DNA of 50,207 bases from a virus. Location of the stretch: positions 1-50,207 of the IMG/VR virus record IMGVR_UViG_3300035666_000033; one strand, given 5' to 3'. Below are positions 2,256-50,207 of this stretch, piece after piece; the stretch's first letter is position 1, and every line of letters begins with the position of its first letter. The notes under the pieces were generated by a model. It was not told the DNA's origin. It worked only from the letters and a program-made list of their open reading frames with translations, and did not search any database. The translations under genes were made by a program, and so were the position numbers.

Positions 2256-2693
2256 TCAGGCCGCGCCGGTTCCCGTGCTGCCAAACCCGCCGGCGCCCCG
2301 CTCCGTGTCGGAAAGGTCTTCGACTTCCTGCACCTCGAAATCTGGGCACACGGTCACTACCAGTTGGGCGATTCGCTCGCCTGGCTGGATGTTGAGGGCG
2401 CCTTGGCCGTGGTGGGCGAGAATCACCTTGAGCTCGCCTCGGTAGTCGGAGTCGATGACGCCGGCGAGAACCGTTATTCCGTGCTTTGCGGCGAGGCCGG
2501 AGCGGTCTCGGATCAGCCCAACATGGCCGGGCGGAATCTCCACCGAAATACCGGTGCGAACCATCAGGGGCGTTGTCGTCTTGTGCAGGTACTCGGCTTC
2601 GAGCGCGTGCAGGTCAAACCCCGCCGCACCTTCGGTTTGGCGGCGGGGAATGATGGCTTTGGGGTTGGTCTTTTTGAATTTGAGGATTTGCAT
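2256..2693 (-). CDS. dut: dUTP diphosphatase
   Basis: Hydrolyses dUTP to dUMP and pyrophosphate, keeping uracil out of phage DNA and feeding dTMP synthesis. All five motifs of the trimeric dUTPase family are present in 145 residues: AAGFDLHA (23-30), DRSGLA (63-68), GVIDSDYRGELKV (78-90) with the catalytic Asp and Tyr, PGERIAQLVV (104-113), and the glycine-rich C-terminal arm RGAGGFGSTG (132-141). Length is normal. No strong Shine-Dalgarno sequence precedes the start. It lies in the leftward early block between the lectin-fold gene and a small cysteine-rich gene. Confidence 0.97.
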   Translation of the reverse strand: MQILKFKKTNPKAIIPRRQTEGAAGFDLHALEAEYLHKTTTPLMVRTGISVEIPPGHVGLIRDRSGLAAKHGITVLAGVIDSDYRGELKVILAHHGQGALNIQPGERIAQLVVTVCPDFEVQEVEDLSDTERGAGGFGSTGTGAA

Positions 2694-2723
2694 GATTTTG
2701 TTGGCTCTGAAAGCGTTTCGGGC

Positions 2724-2740
2724 GGCCCGCTTGGCGGGCC
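2724..2740. repeat. perfect GC hairpin downstream of the variable-type C-terminus
   Basis: GGCCCGC TTG GCGGGCC is a perfect 7-bp stem with a 3-base loop, 33 bp beyond the stop of the lectin-fold gene. No T-tract follows on either strand, so it is not an ordinary intrinsic terminator. In characterised diversity-generating retroelements a short GC hairpin or cruciform lies just downstream of the variable repeat and promotes retrohoming. The position here fits, but the link is inferred. A second small palindrome, GGTCATGTGACC on the minus strand, lies between the stop codon and this hairpin. Confidence 0.6.
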
Positions 2741-2773
2741 AGCCCGGTTACATGACACAGGTCACATGACCCA

Positions 2774-3757
2774 TTACACCTTTGCGAGGCGGCCGCCGAC
2801 GTTCGTGTACGAGTTCGACGCGGCGTTGTTGACGTTGAGACAGACCACGCCGGCGTACGCGCCGTTGCTCCAACTGCCGCCGTGGTAGGCGACAGCGTTT
2901 TCCCAGGCCCAGAAGTAGTTGCCGAAGGCCGAATCGTCACGATCATCGCGGGTCTTCTTCGCCACAAACACGGCGCCCAGGTCGAAGCCTTCGCCCTGCT
3001 TGCGGGCGCGGCGATGGAGCCAACCGCTTGCAGGCGCCTTGACGCCGGTGGAGACATATGACTTGCCGCCCTCGGCGTCCCAGATGCGGTAGCGACGCTC
3101 TTCATCCGTCTGAAGGCCATCGACCATCTGCCAGACGTTGCCCCACAGACCGACAATGCCGCGCCAGGTGGCTTGCGCGACGACCTCATCATCAACCGGG
3201 CGGGCACCGTTGCCATTGACGTAGCCATCGCCAAGGATGGACTTGGCGTCCGGCGTGCCCAGTTCGATCAGGGCGAGCGTCTGAATGGCGCCAAGGTGGT
3301 AGATGCTCCACAACTGGAATCCGTCAAACTCACCGTTGCGCGCCTCGGCGGCCTTTTGCATGGCCGGGAAGTTGATCCGCGTCAGCGGCATCTGGCCCGG
3401 CTGGGAGCCCAGCTTGTCACCGTCCGGTGTGCCCTGGTATTTGCCGACATAGAACGCCTTCAGTTGCAGGGCGTTGCGCATGAAAGCAGGGTGGGCGCTG
3501 AATCCTTCGTCGTGCTCGTCGCTGATCCAGACGGCTTTCTTGCCGACGTGCTCGCCAGACTCGATAACGCCAGAACGGTAGTAGAAGGTCGGCACGCGAA
3601 CCATGTGCTGGCCGTCGATGATTTCGTCCTGGATGCCAGCGTAGGCCGGGTGCTCGTCGAAGTAGCCCGGCGCCACGTCGATGCTGTTGCCGGCCTCGTC
3701 GATGCGCTGCCAGGGGGTGTTTTTCTTGCCGAAGATGATGCCGATGATCTTGCTCAT
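2774..3757 (-). CDS. C-type-lectin-fold (FGE-sulfatase-like) protein with DGR-type variable C-terminus
   Basis: 327 residues from the ATG at 3757, preceded by AAGGAG nine bases upstream. The N-terminal half resembles the phage and prophage family often labelled formylglycine-generating-enzyme-like (VRVPTFYYRSG, GKKAVWIS, HPAFMRNALQLKAFYVGKY). The C-terminus carries GGSWSNGAYAG followed by an Asn-rich stretch ending NVGGRLAKV, the layout of variable-repeat proteins of diversity-generating retroelements. Most variable-looking positions use AAC, TAC, CAC or AGC codons, as expected from adenine-specific mutagenesis of AAY codons. Such proteins are usually displayed ligand binders, but this gene sits in the early operon between ssb and dut. 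No reverse transcriptase or template repeat is visible in the window. Sulfatase-activating chemistry is not implied. Confidence 0.75.
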   Translation of the reverse strand: MSKIIGIIFGKKNTPWQRIDEAGNSIDVAPGYFDEHPAYAGIQDEIIDGQHMVRVPTFYYRSGVIESGEHVGKKAVWISDEHDEGFSAHPAFMRNALQLKAFYVGKYQGTPDGDKLGSQPGQMPLTRINFPAMQKAAEARNGEFDGFQLWSIYHLGAIQTLALIELGTPDAKSILGDGYVNGNGARPVDDEVVAQATWRGIVGLWGNVWQMVDGLQTDEERRYRIWDAEGGKSYVSTGVKAPASGWLHRRARKQGEGFDLGAVFVAKKTRDDRDDSAFGNYFWAWENAVAYHGGSWSNGAYAGVVCLNVNNAASNSYTNVGGRLAKV

Positions 3758-3838: not shown

Positions 3839-4321
3839 TCAATCAAAAGGGATGTCGTCCTCGAAGTCGTCGAAGCCCCGTGATTGAGGTGCGCTTTGCC
3901 GCTGCTGCCCGCCGCCGTTGCCTTGCGGGCGCTGTTGCTGCTGCCGCTGCTGCGGTTCGCCGGAAGACTGTCCGCCGCTGGCGTCGCCACGACCGCCAAG
4001 CATGGTCATTTCATTGACCGTGATTTCCGTGGTGTAGCGGTCTTGCCCGTCCTTGTCCTGCCACTTCCGGGTTTTCAGGCTTCCCTCGATGTAGATCAGA
4101 GAGCCTTTGCGCAGGTACTGCCCGGCGATTTCGGCGAGCTTGCGGTAGAAAACGAGGCGATGCCACTCCGTTTGCTCCTTCTTCTCGCCCGTCTGCTTGT
4201 CCTTCCAGGATTCGGACGTTGCCAGGGTGGCGTTTGTTATCGCGTCACCATTCGGCATGTAGCGGGTCTCCGGGTCTTTCCCAAGGTGCCCGACCAGGAT
4301 TACTTTATTGACTGAGGCCAT
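3839..4321 (-). CDS. ssb: single-stranded DNA-binding protein
   Basis: 160 residues from the ATG at 4321. The OB-fold N-terminus begins [20 protein letters not shown] and contains [19 protein letters not shown] and the strand [15 protein letters not shown], as in bacterial SSB. A Gln/Gly-rich linker follows (about 112-148), and the acidic tip ends DDIPFD, the partner-recruiting tail found in cellular SSB. It coats single-stranded DNA in replication and recombination and probably works with RecT and the exonuclease encoded upstream. Its start overlaps the preceding gene by 17 bases. Confidence 0.97.
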
Positions 4322-4853
4322 GCTCTTCCTTTTCTTCAATCCTCATTGTTGAAAACAGCGCTTCCTTCACCGCACGTATGATGCGGGTCAGATACAGGTA
4401 GTCCGGGTTGTCCTTTTCCGGTAGCCGATACCACCACTCGTCACCCAGCAGCTTCTGCATCAAGTTGCTCTGGCTCCACGGGTCGGTAACATCGCCAACC
4501 TCGTCAATTTCATCGAACAACTCGCGCGCTTCGCTGGCGGTCAGGTCGCGTCTACGGCGGTCGCGGATAACCTCCTTGCGCAAGGTCACGATCAACCCTT
4601 CAGGATCGAACACCGAACTATTTAGGCCGCTGGCGAGGTTCTTTGCCAAGTAGTGCTCATCGCATGAACAGAAAAACTCGGCGATAGTCCTATCTCCCAT
4701 CGCACCCCAATACGACGCCCAAGCCTTTCCGTAGCACTCGATATTGATGCGCCCCTTTCGCGGCTCGATGTCCTCCAGCGCGACGCGGATAGGGTCAAGG
4801 TTCGGAACTTCGCTGATTTCAAGATGGCGAATCAGTTTCTCGGCTATCCTCAT
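4305..4853 (-). CDS. conserved phage protein, function unknown
   Basis: 182 residues from the ATG at 4853, which overlaps the preceding stop as ATGA. The protein is acidic and mainly helical, with a Trp-rich centre ([14 protein letters not shown]), a paired-Cys segment ([14 protein letters not shown]) and a basic patch ([19 protein letters not shown]). No domain is recognised. Tight coupling to the gene upstream and to ssb downstream suggests an early function in DNA metabolism or host modification, but that is inferred from position only. Confidence 0.8.
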
Positions 4854-6551: not shown

Positions 6552-7673
6552 CTATGCAGCCATCAGCACCTTGCGCGAGCCGGAAGAATCCATCGGGCTG
6601 ACGACGCCGAAGCGCTCCATTTGCTCGACCAGCCGGGCCGCGCGGTTGTATCCGATGCGCAAATGGCGCTGCACCAGCGAGATAGACGCCCGGCCGTTGT
6701 CGATAACGATCTGGCGGGCCTGCTCGTACAGCGGATCATCTTCGTCGCCGACGCCAGAAATCAAAGCCGCCGGCTCTTCTTCGTGTTCCTGAATTCCGCC
6801 AAACGCCTCGTTGATGGCTGCAAAGGCTTCGCGGACTGCGCCGGCGTTCAGGATGATTTCGGCGTCGTGGCGCTCTTCCTCCATCATGTCCGCCTGGGCC
6901 GGGTCGCGCTCTTCATTGACGCCGATGTGAGCGATTCGCTTCAGCACCAGCGACTGAGTGAGAACGAAAGACAGCTTGTCGGCGTGCGTCACCGCCAGTT
7001 CTGAGCATGTCCGGCCGTGCTCAACCAGCCTTCGCACCTCGTCATCGACCATGCTCTGGTTGGTGAGCCGGATTTTTCCGCCCTCCGGGTTTGTGAGAAG
7101 GGCGCGGTCGTCGATGGTGAAGAAGTCTGGCGCCTCGCCGGACTGAACCCATGACGTGAAGTGGCTTGCCGGCACGCCCTTGGTGCGCCAGCGCCGCAGC
7201 TTCGGCATTTCGTCGAAGTTGCGGATCAGGGTTCCGATGAGGTTGTCCACTTTGGTTTCGCTGGCGGCATCGATAACCATCAGGCCGGCGCTGAAATCCA
7301 GCCAGGCGCGGACGACGGTTGTTCTGATAAATGCCTTGGCGAGCAATTCCTCGGTGACGAGCTCCTTGATTTCGCGCATCTGCTTGCGCCCAGGCTTGTA
7401 GCCTTGCTGCTCTTCAATCTCTTCCGCCCGACGCTTTGCTTCAGCCTGAACGACACAGGCCGGGAGAATCTTGTCATCTTCACGCATGGCGATTGCCGCC
7501 ACGTTGTCGGCGAAGCGGATCAGGCCCTCCATGCCGGCAACCGGCGGGATAAACCCCCGGCTGCTTGCCTCGGACGCGCCGCAAGGGATGAACGGTCGCC
7601 GCGCAACGGCGGCATCAATGGTGTCCGGCGTGATGCCGGCAAAGGTCAGGATGGTTGCGTTGCGGGCGAGCAT
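6552..7673 (-). CDS. RdgC-like protein fused to an FtsK gamma domain
   Basis: 373 residues from the ATG at 7673, with AAAGGGG upstream. Residues about 20-300 follow E. coli RdgC block by block: [27 protein letters not shown], a rigid charged helix, [37 protein letters not shown] and [10 protein letters not shown]. RdgC forms a ring on duplex DNA and limits RecA access. Residues 313-373 match the FtsK gamma winged helix, including [20 protein letters not shown], which in FtsK reads KOPS sequences and touches XerD. The combination is unusual: a ring-forming DNA binder with a sequence-specific reader. It stands among RecT, exonuclease, Rad50-like and SSB genes, so a role in phage recombination or in countering host RecBCD/RecA is likely. 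Each half is recognised with confidence; the joint function is inferred. Confidence 0.92.
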
Positions 7674-9194: not shown

Positions 9195-9580
9195 GTCGGC
9201 CTCCCGGCGATTTCGTCTGGAACATCGAAGAAACCTAGTTGGCCTTTCCACGGCATGAACGGAAGCGGTTGCGGGTCTCGCAGCACAAAGCCATGCTTGC
9301 CGAAGAACCAAGGCGATTCGGACTCGGCTACGCAATCAACTATTTCGACAGACCCGATGATGCCGCCGCGCTGAAGCGCTTCGAACGTCGGAAACAAGAT
9401 CGCATGATTCGCGGCCATTGCCGTGTCGTAGGCGTCTTCGTACTCACCCTTGGTCATGCCCTTGGATGCGTGAATCAGGACGCGGCCACGAAAGCGCGTT
9501 GCCCAGTCTCGGTTTTCGATGTCCTTTCCGCCATGCAGGATCAGCCACGCCCAGGGCTGGCGAATGGATAGCGCCTTCAT
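9191..9580 (-). CDS. ASCH domain protein
   Basis: 129 residues. The N-terminus ALSIRQPWAWLILHGGKDIE with ENRDW, FRGRVLIHASKG and the later GIIGSVEIVDCV is the ASCH beta-barrel signature. ASCH domains bind RNA or act on modified nucleosides; some bacterial members hydrolyse N4-acetylcytidine. Here the partner is unknown. The gene is coupled by ATGA overlaps to the genes on both sides and belongs to the early block. Confidence 0.88.
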   Translation of the reverse strand: MKALSIRQPWAWLILHGGKDIENRDWATRFRGRVLIHASKGMTKGEYEDAYDTAMAANHAILFPTFEALQRGGIIGSVEIVDCVAESESPWFFGKHGFVLRDPQPLPFMPWKGQLGFFDVPDEIAGRPT

Positions 9581-10275
9581 GCGGAAACCTCGGCGCCCAT
9601 GTCGTCGTGCGGGAAGTTGGCCGTTGCCGGAACTGCGGTTGGCGCTGAGGCTTGCGCTCTGGCGATGGCTTCACCTGAGAGCTTGCTGATTCCCTTCAGG
9701 TACTCAGTTGCGGCAATCAGCAGTTCTTTTACCGCCTCTGGATCATTGGCGGCATCGCAATACTCAATCGGGCCGCCGATATTGAATCCGGCATCGCCTG
9801 TCATCTTGCTAATGGCCTGCATTGCCCTCAGCAGCATTTCGCTCCGCTGAACGAATGGCGCCGCATCGTCCTTGTGCCCACTTCCTCCGCACGCCGGGCA
9901 TGAATTTGCTTCATGCTCTGCCCAACGATCCTCGGTTTTGCCGTCGTTGATGAAGACGATGGCGCCATGATGCTCGGCATAGGACTTGCCGGCGGCCAGT
10001 GCTTTTTGAACCGCCTCGCGCAACTCGGGGCTGAACGTCGGAAATAGACCAGCGGCACGCATCGCCTTGGACTTTTCCGAAAGATCAGCGGCAAGCAACG
10101 GATATTCCTCGCGGCACGAATTTGCATAGGAACGAAGCGCCATGTAGGCATGCTTGTCGTGGCTCAGATCGAGCACGAAGTATTCGCAGCCGTGGTGCTT
10201 CCCGCCGTGCTGGTCGCTGCCGTCCGCGCGCTGCACGATGAATTTGCCGTACAGGCCCTTGGTCTTGTCGCCCAT
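9577..10275 (-). CDS. conserved phage protein, function unknown
   Basis: 232 residues. The N-terminal 65 residues (GKFIVQRADGSD, HHGCEYFVLDLSHDKHAYMA, LRSYANSCREEYPLLAADL) form a compact block seen in many temperate phages. The middle contains a CXXC element (NSCPACGGSGH), and the C-terminus is helical and low in complexity. It is probably a fusion of a small conserved domain with a phage-specific tail. Function is unknown. The stop overlaps the ASCH gene start. Confidence 0.8.
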   Translation of the reverse strand: MGDKTKGLYGKFIVQRADGSDQHGGKHHGCEYFVLDLSHDKHAYMALRSYANSCREEYPLLAADLSEKSKAMRAAGLFPTFSPELREAVQKALAAGKSYAEHHGAIVFINDGKTEDRWAEHEANSCPACGGSGHKDDAAPFVQRSEMLLRAMQAISKMTGDAGFNIGGPIEYCDAANDPEAVKELLIAATEYLKGISKLSGEAIARAQASAPTAVPATANFPHDDMGAEVSA

Positions 10276-41276: not shown

Positions 41277-41319
41277 GCGGAAAACCCCGCCAATCGAGCG
41301 GTTGCGCGCGGCATACCAT
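41277..41319 (+). promoter_or_regulatory. possible late regulatory element, copy B
   Basis: GCGGAAAAC (41277-41285), 28 bases, TACCAT (41314-41319), parallel to the element at 25498. It begins directly after the stop of the preceding gene and ends at the start of the polyvalent gene, which has no Shine-Dalgarno sequence. Confidence 0.3.
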
Positions 41320-44300
41320 GCCGTGCATGAGCGCCGATTCCACCTTCCTACAGATTGAGACTGCTGCCCACGGCGGCGCCTTCGGGGATAACCCGATTCC
41401 GGCGCCGACCGAGGCGCAATGCCTCTCTGGAAATTACAAGGTAGGCCGGGCCAGCATCTACGGCCTGGCCATTGCCATCGAGCAGCCGCGCGGCAGCTAC
41501 CGAACCGGGATCGATTCCAAGACCGGAAAGCGCTGGGCAAGCCGGATGGCGGCCCACTACGGCTACATCAACGGCACAAAAGGCAACGACGGCGACTGCG
41601 TTGATTGCTTCATCGGCTTCTACCCCCAATCCCAGGCGGCATTCGTCATCAACCAGAACGTCGGTGGAAAGTTCGACGAGCACAAGGTGATGCTTGCCTA
41701 CCCGGACGAAGAGTCCGCGCGGCGCGCCTACCTGGACAGTTACGAGCGCGGCTGGAATGGCCTCGCCAGCGTCGTTTCCCTCTCCGTTTCTCAACTCAAG
41801 TGGTGGCTCAAGAATGGAGACATGCGCCGGCCGCTGCGTGCTGAAAATCTCCCTCACGAAGGACTCGAAACCATGACCCGCAAAGTGCAATGGAACAGCG
41901 AAGCGCTGCCCTACGACCAGACCCTTGACCAAGTGCTGTACGAAATCCGGCGATCAGACGCTGGCGAAAGCCTGTTGCTGGACGCCGTGAGCGCCAAGGA
42001 CATCATTGAAGACGCCGACGGCGCCCTGGCGTTTGATGCGCTGGTGACGCCATACGCCAAGCTGGAGCGGAAGATGGAGGTTCTACAGGGCGTCATGGTT
42101 CGCTCTGGCGAGTCCGTCAAGCCGGTTGCCATGCAGGTTACCGATCCATTCAAGCAGCGCGGCGTCGCCAACGTGGCAGCCATTTTCGAGCTATCCGACG
42201 GTCAAACCGTTTCGATCTTCTTCCACAACCCGGACGTGACGCCGAACAAGATGGCGGCGAGTGACGAGGTTATCTCGTGGAAGTGGCTCCTGAACAAGAA
42301 GGACATCACCATCGTTGTGGCGCCCGAGCGCGGCGAAGACCTCAATGTCCGCGAAGTGGCACGCCGCATTATTCGGCTTGCCGAGAAGAACAGCCCGGCA
42401 TTCCAGCGCGCCAACACCAAGCGCGCGGAGCGTATGCAGGGAATCCAAGCGCTGAAGGATGAAATCACCACGCTGGAAACCGAATTGGCGACGGCGCAGC
42501 ATGAACTTGAAGTGGCGAAAGTGGCCGCCGAGACTGCGCCAGTCCGCACGCTGCTGACGGACGAAGAGCAGGCTGCACTTGCCAAGCGAGAGGAAGCGGC
42601 TCGCGCCATCCTCGAAGGCATGACTGAAGAGCAGATCACGCAAGTAGGCGCAAGCCCGTCGCTGGTGACGGTTGTTACTCTGAAGCTGGGCCGGTTTTCT
42701 GCCATCGACAAGATTCTTGAAAACCACCCGGATGACGTTGAAAAGGCTATTGCCTCTGTCGTACCGGAAGCCTCCGCAAGGTCTGCGCAACAGAAGGTCG
42801 ACATCACCTATCGCAACAGCGCCGACGGCCTCTTTACGTCGTTCTTCCCGGATACGCCGGAAGGTGAAAAGGCATGGAACATCATTAACGCCACGCCGGG
42901 CGCCGAGGGCGGCAAGGTGCTTGCAGCCCATGCCGAGCCAACCATTGAGCAACTGCGCAAGGCCGGCTACACCGTGGAAGAGGACACCAGCGCCCCGAGC
43001 GCCGTCGATGATGATGCCCTGCTGGCCGAACTGGCGCAGAAATCCGGCGAACAGGATGGGTCACCCGATGTGTTCTCTGTTGGCTCCGTCAAATTCCAAG
43101 CTTTCGCCGTCAAGATCAGACAAGGGAAGCAGCGCGTATGGGGCGTTCGCGTCTTGGAAAACGGCAAGGAGATGAACCCCGCTGACGGCAACGGCGCAGG
43201 TTTCAAGAGCGACACCAAGGCAAGCATGATCGAAGACATGGAGCGCAGCTATGCCGCGATAACCAAGATTGGAGACAAGGAGCAGAACGAGAACCGCTGG
43301 CGCGAGGGGTTTGGACTTCCGCCGCTTCCGACAGAAGGCGCCTCTGCTTCAAACGAACAGGCCCTGATTGACGCCTACATCAAGGCATGGGGAGAAGAGG
43401 CTGCGATGGTCAATGCCGCCGTAGCCGCCGTGAATTGGGAAGGAATCATCGACAACGCCAGCGCGACGGCTGAAATTCAGAAGCTGCAAAGCGCCGCCAA
43501 TAGCGACCGGCCGATTATCAAGGCCCGCGATGCCCTGGAGGCCGCCGGCATGAAGACATGGGATTCCCGCCTGTCTGGCGTCACCGAAACCGAGGAATTC
43601 CGGGCGCAAAGCAAGGCGATGGATGCCTACCGAGAGGCAATGGACAAGATTCAGGCCATCGCCAAGGAAAAGCTGATCGAGGCCGGCAAGGCGGAGCTTT
43701 CGGCCCTGCCAGAAGATGCCCCGCTGGAAGACGCGGCCCGCGCCATCTATCGCAAGCACGGTATCGATATGGGTCAGCGTAGCGACTGGGTTTCCCGTGT
43801 CGTTACCGCCGTCAATGAAAAGGACGCCGAGGCGCTGCGCAGCATCCTGGCCGGCGTTGGCAGCGACAGCAACAAAGCCAGCATGGAGATTTTCGAGCGG
43901 GCGGCAGGGTTCAAGCTGGCAAAGACCCAGAAGGAGCGCGCCAAACAGATCGACGAATGGGCAGGCATAACGCCCGAGAAGCGCGCCGAGATTGAGGCTG
44001 CGAAAGATGCAGCGTGGCAGGCTCGCAAGATTGAGGAAGGCGTCAAGGATGCCTGGGGCTGGCTGAAGAGTATGAAGGTGCGAGACGGCGCCGATGTGGT
44101 TGATGGTCAGCAGTACCTTTTGCGCCAGTTCGCCGAAGGATACGACGAGGCCGGCACCGGCAAGAAAGGTGCCGCCACGATCTATGGCATGAAGAATGGA
44201 AGCGCTCTCCGCTACGTCAACAACCGCAGCTTCAACGGCTTCCTGAAGGCGGCAATGGCATTTGGCGGACTGCGCAAAGCGCTTGAATCGGTCGGCGCCA

Positions 44301-46033
44301 TTGAACAGAGCGCCGATAAGGCCGCAAGCGTCGATGCTGCATACCAGTTCGCCAGCGCAACGGACGAATTCAAGGCGTGGCTCGCCGACTACCTGGACAA
44401 GCCAGAATACTCGCCGTTCGCTACGGCCAAGGCGATGGATCAGGCCGCCCAGCGCAACGGTGCCAGCGTCGATTGGGGAATGTTCTCCGGCGCGGCGCTG
44501 GATGGCGTTAGCGCTGCCGTTGCAGAGCTTGAACGCGCCCTTGACGTTGCCGCGACCAATGAGCCGATCAATCGTGTCGAGGGGAACATCGGCCAGGCCG
44601 ATCTTGAGGCCGAAGTCGCAGGGAGCATCAAGGAGGCTATCGAAATTCTGTCCGAGGCCGATTACGGCCCGAGCGAAGAGGAAATCGGCGGGCTGTTCGA
44701 GGCCGAATCAACGACACTGGACAGCGCCGACGGAGCCTATCTTGGCGTCGAAAAACAAGCCATTTCCGCAACCAAGGCATTGCTCCAGTATTTCCGCGAC
44801 TTCATCGCATCGGATTCCAAGTTTGCCAAGGTTCCAGAGTCGGCATACGGATGGACGGCGTCCGGTGAAATCATGGATAAGGACGAGGCGAAGCGCCGTC
44901 TGCGCAGCCTGATTGACATCGCCATCAACCGGAAGGCCGGCATTCCAGACCTGACGCCCGAGCAGGACAAGCGCCTGGCCGACTATGCCCACGACGCCCG
45001 CACCATCAGCGACTACCTGACCAAGCGCATTCGCCACACTGGCGCACGCAACCTGCTGCGCACGCCTGAAATGAAAGCCAAGTATCCGCATATCGACAAC
45101 CAGCCACGCGACGGCTTCGATTCCGTCTCGCTCGACGGCATTGATTCCGACGGCTATGTCGGCAAAGTCAAGAAGGGCGGGGAGGTGGTTGGGCGTATCG
45201 ACATTGGCGGCGACGGCAAGGCAATGGTGTTCGTCGGCGCGTCCGGCGACCAGCGTGTCGTATTCCCATCCGGCACGGAGGCAACCTATTCCGATGAGGA
45301 TGCAGCAGCGATGATTGACGCCCTGTTTTCCACCAAGGCAGCAAACGCGGCGCCCGAGGCGATTGAAGGCCCGGCAAAAGATCGCGCGTCCGCGCTCAAG
45401 ATGCTGACCGATACCAGCATGAACGTCTGGATGTCGGAAGGTCAGAACAAGGCCGTGATCGCCGGACTCATGGGCGAAGAATGGCAGTTCTTCGCGGACA
45501 AGATGAAAGAACTGGCCGGCGTCATCGCCGCCATGCCCAAGACCTACGACCAGGACGGAATGGGAGATTCTGCTGTAGCGCACCTCCACTACTTCAGGGG
45601 CGCTGCTGACTGGTACATCACCGAAAAGGACATGGAAGGAAAAGGCACCCAGCAGGCTTTCGGCTTGGCTGACCTGGGTTATGGCGGCGAGCTTGGCTAC
45701 ATCAGCATCGAAGAACTCATCAGCGCCGGCGTCGAGCTTGATTTCCACTTCTCGCCAAAGACCATCGGGCAGATTAAGGGCAAGGGCGAGCCCGCTACGC
45801 AGGAGGCCGCGCCAGAAGTTTCGCCCGAAGACCGGCAAAAGCAAGTAGATCAGGCGCTGTTCCAGTCCGTGATCGACGGCAACGTACCCGACATTCTTGC
45901 GCCTGAACTGGCCGACTCACTGGAGGCCGCCTATTACCGCCAGCAAACCGACCCTGCGCTTGTCAGCCTGTTCGAGCAGGCCGTGAGTGCCTACCAAAAC
46001 GCCATGATGGCCGCCACCGCTGAACTTGCATGA
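41318..46033 (+). CDS. polyvalent protein: pyrophosphatase-like, DarA-like and DUF2958 domains
   Basis: 1571 residues from the ATG at 41318; the ATG at 41327 is an alternative. Residues about 40-175 form an inorganic-pyrophosphatase-like domain (RMAAHYGYINGTKGNDGDCV, then DCFIGFYP), with Asp91, Asp93 and Asp96 in the DGDxxD position. Residues about 190-365 (KVQWNSEALPYDQTLDQVLY, FELSDGQTVSIFFHNPDVTP, REVARRIIRLAEKNSPAFQR) resemble the DarA-type defence-against-restriction domain, followed by a coiled coil. A long helical middle follows, and residues about 1415-1490 match DUF2958 (HLHYFRGAADWYITEKD, ELGYISIEELISAGVELDFH). Such multi-domain proteins in phages and conjugative elements are called polyvalent proteins and are thought to enter the host with DNA and blunt its defences. 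Confidence 0.82.
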   Translation: MPCMSADSTFLQIETAAHGGAFGDNPIPAPTEAQCLSGNYKVGRASIYGLAIAIEQPRGSYRTGIDSKTGKRWASRMAAHYGYINGTKGNDGDCVDCFIGFYPQSQAAFVINQNVGGKFDEHKVMLAYPDEESARRAYLDSYERGWNGLASVVSLSVSQLKWWLKNGDMRRPLRAENLPHEGLETMTRKVQWNSEALPYDQTLDQVLYEIRRSDAGESLLLDAVSAKDIIEDADGALAFDALVTPYAKLERKMEVLQGVMVRSGESVKPVAMQVTDPFKQRGVANVAAIFELSDGQTVSIFFHNPDVTPNKMAASDEVISWKWLLNKKDITIVVAPERGEDLNVREVARRIIRLAEKNSPAFQRANTKRAERMQGIQALKDEITTLETELATAQHELEVAKVAAETAPVRTLLTDEEQAALAKREEAARAILEGMTEEQITQVGASPSLVTVVTLKLGRFSAIDKILENHPDDVEKAIASVVPEASARSAQQKVDITYRNSADGLFTSFFPDTPEGEKAWNIINATPGAEGGKVLAAHAEPTIEQLRKAGYTVEEDTSAPSAVDDDALLAELAQKSGEQDGSPDVFSVGSVKFQAFAVKIRQGKQRVWGVRVLENGKEMNPADGNGAGFKSDTKASMIEDMERSYAAITKIGDKEQNENRWREGFGLPPLPTEGASASNEQALIDAYIKAWGEEAAMVNAAVAAVNWEGIIDNASATAEIQKLQSAANSDRPIIKARDALEAAGMKTWDSRLSGVTETEEFRAQSKAMDAYREAMDKIQAIAKEKLIEAGKAELSALPEDAPLEDAARAIYRKHGIDMGQRSDWVSRVVTAVNEKDAEALRSILAGVGSDSNKASMEIFERAAGFKLAKTQKERAKQIDEWAGITPEKRAEIEAAKDAAWQARKIEEGVKDAWGWLKSMKVRDGADVVDGQQYLLRQFAEGYDEAGTGKKGAATIYGMKNGSALRYVNNRSFNGFLKAAMAFGGLRKALESVGAIEQSADKAASVDAAYQFASATDEFKAWLADYLDKPEYSPFATAKAMDQAAQRNGASVDWGMFSGAALDGVSAAVAELERALDVAATNEPINRVEGNIGQADLEAEVAGSIKEAIEILSEADYGPSEEEIGGLFEAESTTLDSADGAYLGVEKQAISATKALLQYFRDFIASDSKFAKVPESAYGWTASGEIMDKDEAKRRLRSLIDIAINRKAGIPDLTPEQDKRLADYAHDARTISDYLTKRIRHTGARNLLRTPEMKAKYPHIDNQPRDGFDSVSLDGIDSDGYVGKVKKGGEVVGRIDIGGDGKAMVFVGASGDQRVVFPSGTEATYSDEDAAAMIDALFSTKAANAAPEAIEGPAKDRASALKMLTDTSMNVWMSEGQNKAVIAGLMGEEWQFFADKMKELAGVIAAMPKTYDQDGMGDSAVAHLHYFRGAADWYITEKDMEGKGTQQAFGLADLGYGGELGYISIEELISAGVELDFHFSPKTIGQIKGKGEPATQEAAPEVSPEDRQKQVDQALFQSVIDGNVPDILAPELADSLEAAYYRQQTDPALVSLFEQAVSAYQNAMMAATAELA

Positions 46034-46046
46034 GGAAGAACGAGAA

Positions 46047-49000
46047 ATGCTGAATCGAATCGCCTTTGATGATGCCGTCGGAAGCGGCGGGCTGCTGGCC
46101 CGCCTGAAGCTGGTCGGCGAACTTGCCAAGATCAAGGTTGGCCTGAAGGATGTCGGCGACGGCCCGCTGGCCTCCGTCAAACGCCTGAAACTGGCGTCCA
46201 GAGCCAACCAGATTCGCGTCGATCTTGGCGCCCATGCCGCCCGCGCGGAACCGGTTGCACAGCAGCAGGAAGGCAGCGAAGAGCCGCAGGCGCCGCGTAA
46301 CCAGACGGCGCAGTATTACGAATTCGACCCGAACCGCAAGCCAGCCCAGCGCAAGAAGGACAACGCGGCCGCCATGTCTCTTTTGGCGCGCATCGATTCC
46401 GGCGAGATTGATCCGTCCCGGCTGACGCCAGAGGAAAAGCTGGCGCTTGCGAAGTATTCCGGTACAGGCGGCGCACTGGTCGGAGCCGACGGCAAGAAGG
46501 GTAGCGCCTACGAGTATTACACCCCGAAGCCGATTGCCGAGGGCGTTTGGGAATTGATGTCCGAGCTTGGCTTTCAGGGCGGCAAGGTACTTGACCCGTG
46601 CGCCGGCGTTGGTATTTTCGGCGCGACGGCACCACTGAGCGCGGCCATTGATGCCGTGGAGCTCAACGAGACCTCCGGCCGCATCAATGGCTTAGTGAAT
46701 GCCGGCCCAGGCTATTCGGCTACCGTTGCCCCATTCGAGAAGGTGGCAGCCGGAACGCCGGACGAACAATACGACGCCATCGTGACCAATGTTCCGTTTG
46801 GCGGCGTCGCAGATCGAGGCGGCAACCAGTTGCACGACAACCGCTACCAGAAGGAGCCGCTGCAAAACTATTTCATTCTGCGCTCCCTGGAGAAGCTGAA
46901 GCCGGGCGGCCTGGCTGTTTTCATCACGCCGCCGCGCTGCGTCTCTGGCAAGGGCGGCAAGGAAGAGGAATTGCGCGTCAAGGCGAGCTACACGGCTGAA
47001 TTCCTTGGCGCTTATCGGCTCCCAAACTCGGTATTCGGCACGGCCAGCGCCGACACCATGACCGACGTGATCGCTTTCCGCAAGTACAGCCGCGAGACCC
47101 TGGACAAGATCGCCGAATTGCGTGAGCAGTCGCCGCAATCCCTGATCGATGCCAATGTGCAATGGCAGCCGTTCATCGAGGGCCGTTACTTCGACAGCGA
47201 AGGAAAGCGCTTCGTGCTTGGCGACTTCGTTCCGAAAGACCCGAACAAGTTCCGTGACGTGGATCGCGTCATCACCCAGGCAAGCGTCGGAGAAATCGGC
47301 AAGATGCTGAAGCGATTCCCTGATTCCCGAGTGAATTGGGACTTGCTAGGCACGGTTGAAACCACGCCGATCATTTACCGCGATGGCGATACGATCACCC
47401 AGTCCGGCCAGACGCTTCAGATGCAAGGCGGCCGCTGGGCGCCCATGATGCGCAGCGAGGAAAGCGCGGACGCCGCCGAACTGGTCTGGAAGCTGAAGAC
47501 GCCGTATTCCGCCTTTGAGAGCCGCGTCACCTGGATCGAGGCTGAAAAGTGCGTCGATTACATGATCGAGACTTCGCAATCGCTCGACATCCCGGCGTGG
47601 CTGCGCGGTGCAATGGCCGAAATCCGCCGACTGAAGGACGCCGGCGAGCGCGCACAGTTCTGGAATGCCGGGATTGTTGGAATGTCAGTAGCCCAAGTCC
47701 TGGAAGAGCGTCTTGGCGAGGAAATCGGCGTCAATTTCGCCGAGGAATATCCTGCCCTGACCGACGCCATGCAGCGCGTATCCGTGGCCGCGAAAAAGCG
47801 CCCGTCTGTGCTTGGCGGGAAGGTCAAGGAGGGGCTTGCCACAATCGGCAACCACTACCAGAAGAAAACCGGGTTCTCCGCCGTGTGGCGTGGCGATGTG
47901 CAGCAGCAGGCGCCAACCGTCGAAATCACGGCAGACTCCAGCTTCGAGGGGTTGCGCTACAAAACGAAATCCATCTGGGCCGGCATGGACGAGGCCAAGG
48001 CCATCTATGGCGATGGATTCGAGCCCTACGAAGACCCGGCCTGGTGCATTTCCCCTGACGGGAAGAGCGTCACCCGCGCCGATGACTATTACGTCGGCAA
48101 CTACGCCGACTTCCTGAAGCGCGCCGACGCCGACATCGCGGCAGCAACCGACGAGAAAATCCGGGCCAAGCTGCTGCGCCAGAAGCTGGACGCCGCCACC
48201 CGCATCGACAAGGTTGATGTGTCGAAGCTGACCTTCAACCTGTTCAGTCCTCACGTCACTCTGGAAGAGAAGGCGGAATTCCTTCGCCGTTTCGTGCATC
48301 CGTCTGCCTCTGTCATCTACGACGAGAAGACCGGTGAGAAGCGCGTTGACATCGATGTACCTGGCAGCAAGCTGACCGACCGCGAGAAGCTGCTGAATCG
48401 CATCGGCGACTACCTGAAGAACGGCACAATCACGCTTGGCGGCGCCAAACTGGGCATGGATGATGCCAAGGCGCTCCAGGAACTGCGCAAGATGGTCAAT
48501 ACCGCCAACGAGCAGTTCAACGGCTGGGTGCGCGGCAATCGCGCTATCGTGAGCCGACTGGAAAGCGTCGCATCCGACCCAGAGAAGCTGCGCTTCCGCT
48601 CTGTCAGCGACGAATCGCCGTTGCCGGTTCCTGGCCTTAACCCTGAACTCAAACTGCACGGCTACCAAAACGCATTTGTCCGCTTGCAGGGCCGCGAATT
48701 TGGCGGCGGCAACGGTGATGGCGTGGGGCTGGGAAAAACCTTCCAGGGCCTGGTTGCGGTTCAATACGCCCAGAGCATCGGCGTCAAGACCAAGACGCTC
48801 TTCGTGGTTCCCAATTCCGTGCTGTCCAACTGGCGCAAGGAGGCCATGCGCGCCTATTCTTCGACCGACGACTGCCTGTTTGTCGGCCTGCGCGAAGGCA
48901 AGGGCGGCAAGCCGGTTGTGAGCTCGTCCAACTTCGACGCCGACCTGACGGCCGTCATGGAGAACCGGCACAGCAAGATTTTCATGACCCTGGAAGCGTT

Positions 49001-50207
49001 CGAGCGCATCCGCCTGCGCGATGAGACCATCGCAGCCTATGAGCAGTTCATGCGCAAGGCCGACGCCAGCTTCGCCGAGAGCGAAGATAAGAAGGAGGAC
49101 GAGCGCGCCAAGGGCAAGCAGGCTGGGCTTCTTTCCTTCCTGTCGAACAAGAGCGGAAGCGCGCCGTACTTGGAAGACATGGGCGTCGATAGCATCGTGT
49201 TCGACGAGGCGCACGTCTTCAAGAATTCCGCCCAGACCGTCGATTTCAAGGGCGCCAAGTTCCTTTCCCTGTCTCCGGCATCGAAGCGCGGCATTGATGC
49301 ACAGGCCAAATCCTGGCTCATCCGTGGAAAGTCGGAACTGAAGGACGGCGTCCTGATGCTGACCGCCACGCCGATCACCAATAGCCCGCTGGAAATCTAC
49401 GCCATGCTGTCGCTGGCCATCGGGCATGAGCGCGTGAATGACATGTGCCTTGGCATCAAGGGCGCCGACAACTTCATGGAAATGATGTGCGCCAAGGAGA
49501 ACCAGGACGACGTGACAATGGACGGCGTAGCTCGCACCACGGACGTGTTCGTCGGCCTCAACAACGTCGGCGTGCTGCGCAAGGCGCTTTCGAGCGCCTT
49601 CACCATCCGTTCAGCAGAGGATGTCGGCGAGCAGATTGTTGTTCCTGACCGCGAAGAGAAGGCTACACCGGTGACGCTTCCCAAGGACATCGTTGATCGC
49701 CTGAAGCTCTACAAGGGCGCTTTCCGCTGGGCCATTGACGAAATCTCCGAGAAGTCGCCGAACCGTGGCGACAAGGGCGCATTCGATGAAGTCTCGCGCC
49801 ACTTCGGCGAGGAAATGGCACTGGTAGGACACCCGTTCAACCTCATCAACAAGATGACGCTGTTGATCGCCGATCCTGAGCTTGACCAGCGCGCCACCTT
49901 CTACAGCTTCATTGCCGCCCAGGCCGACAAGGCAAAGGCAGCCATTGAGCAGTTCAACGCCAAGCGGTTCAGCGAAGACCGTCCGCGCCCGTCACCAATG
50001 ACCGACGAGAGCGCCATTGTTGGCCGCAAGACCACCAAGGATGCCGCTGGCAACGAGAGCGAGCTACTGAAGATCGAGGTTCGCGCCAAGGTCATCGACG
50101 GAAACCGGGTTGCGATTGACACCATCGACCCGGACACCCAGAGCGCATTCGAGGCCATCGCCGAAAAACTTGGCCTTGACCTGGATGTCTCAGTCCCTCC
50201 GAAACTG
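46047..50207 (+). CDS. DarB-like N6-adenine methylase / SNF2 helicase, partial
   Basis: 1387 codons are present; the C-terminus lies beyond the window. The methylase domain has YEYYTPKPIAEGVWELM, motif I GGKVLDPCAGVGIFGA (about 176-191) and motif IV NVPFGG (about 247-252, an NPPY variant). The helicase domain has QNAFVRLQGREFGG, motif I GDGVGLGKTFQG (about 890-901), DEAH (about 1053-1056) and motif III MLTATPITNSP (about 1103-1113). This domain order is that of P1 DarB, a virion protein injected to protect DNA from type I restriction. It follows the DarA-type gene by 13 bases. Confidence 0.92.
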   Translation, partial: MLNRIAFDDAVGSGGLLARLKLVGELAKIKVGLKDVGDGPLASVKRLKLASRANQIRVDLGAHAARAEPVAQQQEGSEEPQAPRNQTAQYYEFDPNRKPAQRKKDNAAAMSLLARIDSGEIDPSRLTPEEKLALAKYSGTGGALVGADGKKGSAYEYYTPKPIAEGVWELMSELGFQGGKVLDPCAGVGIFGATAPLSAAIDAVELNETSGRINGLVNAGPGYSATVAPFEKVAAGTPDEQYDAIVTNVPFGGVADRGGNQLHDNRYQKEPLQNYFILRSLEKLKPGGLAVFITPPRCVSGKGGKEEELRVKASYTAEFLGAYRLPNSVFGTASADTMTDVIAFRKYSRETLDKIAELREQSPQSLIDANVQWQPFIEGRYFDSEGKRFVLGDFVPKDPNKFRDVDRVITQASVGEIGKMLKRFPDSRVNWDLLGTVETTPIIYRDGDTITQSGQTLQMQGGRWAPMMRSEESADAAELVWKLKTPYSAFESRVTWIEAEKCVDYMIETSQSLDIPAWLRGAMAEIRRLKDAGERAQFWNAGIVGMSVAQVLEERLGEEIGVNFAEEYPALTDAMQRVSVAAKKRPSVLGGKVKEGLATIGNHYQKKTGFSAVWRGDVQQQAPTVEITADSSFEGLRYKTKSIWAGMDEAKAIYGDGFEPYEDPAWCISPDGKSVTRADDYYVGNYADFLKRADADIAAATDEKIRAKLLRQKLDAATRIDKVDVSKLTFNLFSPHVTLEEKAEFLRRFVHPSASVIYDEKTGEKRVDIDVPGSKLTDREKLLNRIGDYLKNGTITLGGAKLGMDDAKALQELRKMVNTANEQFNGWVRGNRAIVSRLESVASDPEKLRFRSVSDESPLPVPGLNPELKLHGYQNAFVRLQGREFGGGNGDGVGLGKTFQGLVAVQYAQSIGVKTKTLFVVPNSVLSNWRKEAMRAYSSTDDCLFVGLREGKGGKPVVSSSNFDADLTAVMENRHSKIFMTLEAFERIRLRDETIAAYEQFMRKADASFAESEDKKEDERAKGKQAGLLSFLSNKSGSAPYLEDMGVDSIVFDEAHVFKNSAQTVDFKGAKFLSLSPASKRGIDAQAKSWLIRGKSELKDGVLMLTATPITNSPLEIYAMLSLAIGHERVNDMCLGIKGADNFMEMMCAKENQDDVTMDGVARTTDVFVGLNNVGVLRKALSSAFTIRSAEDVGEQIVVPDREEKATPVTLPKDIVDRLKLYKGAFRWAIDEISEKSPNRGDKGAFDEVSRHFGEEMALVGHPFNLINKMTLLIADPELDQRATFYSFIAAQADKAKAAIEQFNAKRFSEDRPRPSPMTDESAIVGRKTTKDAAGNESELLKIEVRAKVIDGNRVAIDTIDPDTQSAFEAIAEKLGLDLDVSVPPKL

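Follow-up and report, generated by a model that had tools for sequence, protein, structure and literature searches.

A free-standing paralogue of a phage tail-fibre tip as a remote target of a diversity-generating retroelement

Introduction

The chief use ascribed to diversity-generating retroelements (DGRs) in phages is the variation of tail proteins that mediate attachment to the host. The locus described here raises the question of whether a lectin-fold protein encoded among early genes can be such a target, and what use a phage would have for it there. The window, i.e., the whole stretch of DNA that was analyzed, is a complete virus contig of 50,207 bases (IMG/VR record IMGVR_UViG_3300035666_000033). 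A sequence-only reading had described the gene, here called t1, as an orphan DGR target, and had suggested that its product binds something inside the host or is used outside the virion.

Results and Discussion

Gene content and genomic position

The gene and its two neighbors are located as follows:
2774..3757, minus strand: t1, 327 aa, free-standing putative DGR target and paralogue of the tail-fibre tip (assigned from the ORF, start site, relatives, fold, and clade)
3839..4339, minus strand: ssb, single-strand binding protein, upstream of t1 (Pfam SSB, 2.7e-40)
2256..2693, minus strand: dut, dUTPase, downstream of t1 (Pfam dUTPase, 3.5e-35)

The ATG of t1 at 3757 is preceded by the ribosome-binding site AAGGAG, and the C-terminal end of the product reads HGGSWSNGAYAGVVCLNVNNAASNSYTNVGGRLAKV. 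The Pfam-identified neighbors confirmed that t1 lies between ssb and dut on the same strand, within a leftward block that also contains rdgC, recT, an exonuclease, and an SbcC-like gene. The rightward block encodes a terminase, tail sheath, tail tube, a PmgG-like head protein, and DarA/DarB-like antirestriction proteins. Because of this gene content the phage is classed as a P1-like myovirus; it is temperate and very probably carries a DGR. A Pfam profile search returned zero matches for t1, residues 48-325 matched a tail-protein family in PHROGs, and neither a signal peptide nor a transmembrane stretch was seen in the sequence and model.

Further observations concern other genes. RdgC is fused to a C-terminal FtsK gamma domain in two phages of the group (window 6552-7673, minus strand, and L084:11011-12330). 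A 232-aa early gene (9577-10275, minus strand) has zero Pfam matches, and its first ~70 residues match phrog_9572, annotated as "sulfatase-modifying factor". A 1571-aa protein with InPase, DarA_N, and DUF2958 parts (41318-46033, plus strand) is followed by a DarB-like methyltransferase/helicase (46026-50207, plus strand) that is interrupted by the contig end.

Prophages with t1 were found in Betaproteobacteria (Bordetella hinzii, Pigmentiphaga, Gulbenkiania, Burkholderia, Xylophilus, Pseudothauera, and others) and in Pseudomonas. At most loci, t1 was co-strand with and near rdgC, ssb, exonuclease, Erf-like, or methyltransferase genes; the exact neighbors varied, and a search across loci for a constant partner gene adjoining t1 found none. 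The neighborhoods in the window and in most relatives agree with the placement of t1 in an early block away from the tail genes, "early" being judged from neighbor genes. The phage of Gulbenkiania mobilis is Mu-like, with t1 after MuA- and MuB-like genes and the fibre, Avd, template repeat (TR), and reverse transcriptase (RT) ~30 kb off. The early map position of t1 is therefore common to two unrelated phage types, P1-like and Mu-like. In the G. mobilis prophage (L085/L140, G042:C5 about 100-139 kb) the fibre-Avd-TR-RT array lies at the opposite end from t1, and an IMG/VR contig (G007) is nearly identical to it. Four genomes (Pseudomonas antarctica, P. cichorii, Laribacter, and Tepidicella) contained a fibre target without t1, so t1 is an accessory gene. 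The distance between t1 and the cassette was about 6-7 kb in the 75,125-base relative G001 and about 30 to 60 kb in host genomes.

The missing cassette

Searches of the 50,207-base window confirmed that it holds neither an RT nor a TR, and no second copy of the variable region (VR) was found there. The window is collinear with G001 at 90-96% identity, running from G001 base 69312 down to 17119, and one end falls just short of the cassette:
1, window end: contig end, equivalent to G001:69312, ~3 kb short of the RT gene of G001 and ~4 kb short of the TR

The end of the tail region, an 855-aa fibre, a phrog_2618 gene, Avd, TR, RT, and an integrase are present in G001 and lie outside the window. 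Since the window is only part of a phage genome, the absence of a cassette from it is uninformative on the whole phage. The search beyond the window was carried out in relatives, where Avd, a TR, and a DGR-type RT occurred in the same genome as t1. The description of t1 as an orphan consequently did not hold: the orphan appearance arises because the contig ends before the cassette region, and a true orphan target was ruled out. Close phage isolates were sought at the DNA level and none was found, the matches being distant proteins only.

The two ends of the G001 contig (L001:19408-19570 and L019:10841-11003) overlap within the fibre VR, where they disagree at three positions, each of them a TR adenine. 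These mismatches are read from the sequence as a trace of VR variants within one population, and such variants are a likely reason for assembly breaks in the fibre VR.

Fold and origin of t1

The AlphaFold2 model of t1 (pLDDT 94) matched TaqVP first and then Mtd and TvpA, all of which are DGR variable proteins; a C-type-lectin fold around the VR is thus predicted for t1, as the sequence-only reading had supposed. TaqVP, from a Thermus aquaticus prophage (PDB 5vf4), was the best structural match (E 2e-14) and the best PDB sequence match, and it also has a C-terminal VR. However, it shares only 17% identity with t1 and is encoded inside its cassette.

Among viral models, the whole t1 chain matched part of long tail collar fibres. 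Nine of the 44 viral relatives were free-standing like t1, whereas nearly all others formed the last ~333 aa of ~855-aa fibre genes, most of which adjoined Avd, TR, and RT. Homology to the tip of the 855-aa tail fibre was evident at about 50% identity, whereas an anchor, a shaft, and a position beside the tail genes are lacking in t1, which at 327 aa comprises the tip only. In sequence terms, t1 is a fibre tip minus its anchor and shaft. In a tree built without the VR, 17 free-standing genes and 28 fibre tips formed two groups with full support; the split between t1 and the fibre is therefore old, with no exchange between the two bodies.

Adenine-specific variation

The comparison with TRs delimited the following region:
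2781..2883, minus strand: VR of t1, 103 nt, including the conserved 3' end GGCGGCCGCCTCGCAAA (from gapless alignment to the G001 TR and A-site differences between near-identical genes)

When t1 VRs were compared with the TR of their own genome, all mismatches fell at TR adenines in G001 (13 of 13), G002 (19 of 19), the Bordetella hinzii genome G009 (9 of 9), and Pigmentiphaga humi (15 of 15). Pooled over 13 relatives, 177 of 343 TR adenines were changed (52%) vs. 37 of 1072 other bases (3.5%). The fibre target in eight of those 13 relatives was changed at 43% of TR adenines and 2.3% of other bases. The near-identical t1 genes of L001 and L083 differed at 6 of 874 bases outside the VR; inside it, 15 of 26 TR-adenine sites differed, and only 1 of 77 other sites. 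The window's own TR lies outside the contig, and its VR was compared with the two closest TRs, both belonging to relatives: seven mismatches were found with each, of which two (G001) and one (L054) were at non-adenines. Between the VRs of the window and L001, 14 of 16 differences were at TR-adenine sites. In G006, 11 of 20 mismatches between t1 and the TR were at non-adenines, so this target may be drifting. The TR contains nine AAY codons, and no codon turns into a stop through changes at A.

The view of t1 as a DGR target is strongly supported by two findings: t1 VRs differ from the TR of the same genome chiefly at adenines, and the modeled fold matches DGR variable proteins. Homologous phages showed the adenine excess in the VR that such a target should display, and the near-identical pair showed few changes outside it; the opposite outcome, a normal substitution pattern with neither RT nor template, did not appear in the relatives. 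It might be argued that t1 is a common lectin-fold protein, rich in N at its end, that resembles a DGR target by chance, as the window itself has neither RT nor TR. This has a negligible probability, because t1 genes of 13 relatives differ from TRs specifically at adenines, as near-identical genes do from each other, and the TR comparisons ruled out a chance N-rich C-terminus. A frozen, non-diversified duplicate was likewise ruled out by the pooled adenine counts for most relatives, and is plausible for G004.

Within one phage, the match between the t1 VR and the fibre VR was not significant (p 0.058). Matched specificities within one genome were thus not established, and a common ligand for the two proteins is not required. 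The same comparison weakens the proposal that t1 acts outside the cell as a soluble product, set free at lysis or displayed by lysogens, that would block receptors or rival phages or serve as a decoy for them. Such a product would agree with the tip fold that t1 shares with the receptor-binding fibre and with its fibre-like diversification, but it would not need an early position, and t1 has no visible signal peptide or transmembrane stretch; the proposal is accordingly considered improbable.

Hairpin and upstream terminator-like site

Two further elements flank the gene:
2723..2741, minus strand: post-stop hairpin TGGCCCGC-CAA-GCGGGCCG, presumed target-recognition hairpin (from covariation and the BPP-1 precedent, PMC3240598)
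3776..3801, minus strand: intrinsic terminator-like site between ssb and t1, GGCCCCACCTGGGGCC followed by a T run (hairpin part 3801-3786)

The GC hairpin that had been noticed downstream of the stop was confirmed; it lies 32 nt 3' of the t1 stop. Its stem is kept in relatives with compensating changes in 4 of 7 pairs (covariation score 0.215 vs. 0.066 in shuffles), and a GC hairpin downstream of the stop is common to t1 and the fibre genes. Like known DGR targets, t1 therefore has a conserved VR 3' end with a hairpin after it; the loop is CRA in the t1 system, whereas the published 4-nt loop of the BPP-1 target hairpin is GRNA (PMC3240598). A role as terminator was ruled out for this hairpin, as no T run follows the stem. 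Only the window, L001, and L083 showed the terminator-like site between ssb and t1; in the window lineage, t1 may therefore need read-through or separate control.

Relatives with two cassettes

Two tandem Avd-TR-RT cassettes were found in G006 and in prophages of Pigmentiphaga sp. NML080357, Burkholderia sp. LMG 13014, P. humi, and Pseudothauera nasutitermitis. The RT of cassette 1 is a distant one, and the target of this cassette is a different tip protein; in G006, 11 of its 12 mismatches fell at A. The shaft gene of these phages, where seen, matches the 855-aa fibre over the first ~70 aa only, and free-standing lectin-fold tips are encoded next to it. The RT of cassette 2 nests among the RTs of one-cassette phages. 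A search with the cassette 2 TR in four whole bacterial genomes and G006 retrieved only the TR itself and t1, except for one 31-base chance-like match. In these five relatives, a replacement of the fibre tip together with a new DGR, the old DGR being kept for t1, would fit the sequences best. Because t1 is the only detectable target of the retained older cassette, its diversification is probably selected for itself. In G004 (L138:7299-8373), Avd2 and RT2 are 8 nt apart, and a search for the matching TR2 found none; this is likely a natural loss of the TR of the t1 cassette that would have left t1 frozen.

These relatives bear on two other explanations. A spare copy that stores VR sequence or exchanges it with the fibre gene, with no protein role of its own, would be consistent with the common VR end and hairpin, which let one TR rewrite both genes. 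However, t1 is retained where the fibre tip belongs to another family, t1 and the fibre tips are separate clades, and outside the VR the t1 genes of the window and L001 differed by 54 synonymous vs. 7 amino-acid-changing codons, indicative of purifying selection on the t1 body. A spare copy is thus very unlikely. The other explanation is that t1 serves as a second receptor-binding tip in the virion, on the fibre, collar, or baseplate, which would give the phage two independently varied specificities. The origin of t1 as a receptor-binding tip leans this way: its whole chain resembles fibre tips in sequence and fold, and the tips beside the shaft gene in two-cassette relatives are free-standing, as is Mtd in BPP-1. 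In contrast, at every locus seen t1 lay apart from the tail genes; it also lacks an anchor or shaft segment and kept a DGR of its own through the replacement of the fibre tip. A virion tip is less likely than not, though only slightly less probable than the intracellular role considered below.

Comparison with known systems

DGRs with several targets or remote targets are already known. The prototype, the BPP-1 DGR with its target Mtd, resembles the t1 system in its RT, Avd, TR, C-terminal VR on a lectin fold, post-VR hairpin, and A-specific changes. Unlike BPP-1, the t1 system has two targets, one of them remote among early genes, and some relatives have two cassettes. The DiGReF survey of 2012 described DGRs with several paralogous VRs that arose by duplication, each with its own A-changes, and distal targets at over 370 kb in Pseudogulbenkiania (PMC3521204). 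Duplicated paralogous and partly distal targets are thus shared with t1, but that survey describes no target that is an early phage gene excised from a fibre, nor one that a retained second cassette serves alone. A large DGR survey also records secondary targets (PMC8144416). Phage DGRs in which one TR serves two targets were reported in 2023 and 2024 for the tentaclins (PMC10743442) and for Faecalibacterium phages (PMC11792537). Both tentaclin targets have a lectin fold, and why both vary was unclear in that work (PMC10743442). Tentaclins have an N-terminal lectin domain with the VR followed by Ig domains, and their two targets lie within the cassette and share no sequence similarity. In contrast, t1 is the fibre tip itself, with a C-terminal VR and no Ig domain found, and is remote from the cassette. 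In the literature searched, which lacked most subscription papers, no free fibre tip with a DGR of its own was described among the early genes of a phage.

Proposed mechanism and role of t1

Taken jointly, the comparisons make it very probable that t1 is a fibre-tip paralogue that is rewritten from the TR at a distance and represents an old early-gene lineage for which a cassette can be kept. The sequence comparisons support a transfer of TR sequence, altered at adenines, into the t1 VR and, in one-cassette phages, also into the fibre VR. By analogy with the known DGR mechanism, Avd and RT would copy the TR RNA, and the cDNA would home to both targets. Closeness to the cassette is not needed; t1 and the fibre have the VR end and the downstream hairpin in common. 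Accordingly described, t1 would be a second, remote target of the phage's DGR, in one old lineage near early genes.

The t1 product may be a cytoplasmic, early-made, hypervariable binding protein. An intracellular, early role is tentatively favored over a virion tip because of the lack of a visible signal peptide, the early neighbors, and the retention of t1 after the fibre change. The earlier suggestion of a use inside the host or outside the virion gains some weight, since t1 kept its own DGR after replacement of the fibre tip. The t1 product might then bind a variable host or rival-phage molecule in the infected or lysogenic cell and act as an evolvable anti-defense or exclusion factor, although this is a guess. 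Somewhat more speculative still is the idea that a DGR, in some phages t1's own, evolves a fibre-tip-derived, early-made, non-virion cytoplasmic "antibody" against variable host-defense or competitor proteins.

The t1 lineage consists of a freed fibre tip that has long resided by early genes in both P1-like and Mu-like phages and is varied at least as strongly as the fibre. It offers a testable case of targeted hypermutation of a phage protein for a purpose that differs from adsorption or adds to it, and a t1 prophage is carried by culturable hosts. Contigs without an RT can hold live DGR targets, which cassette-centered surveys would miss.
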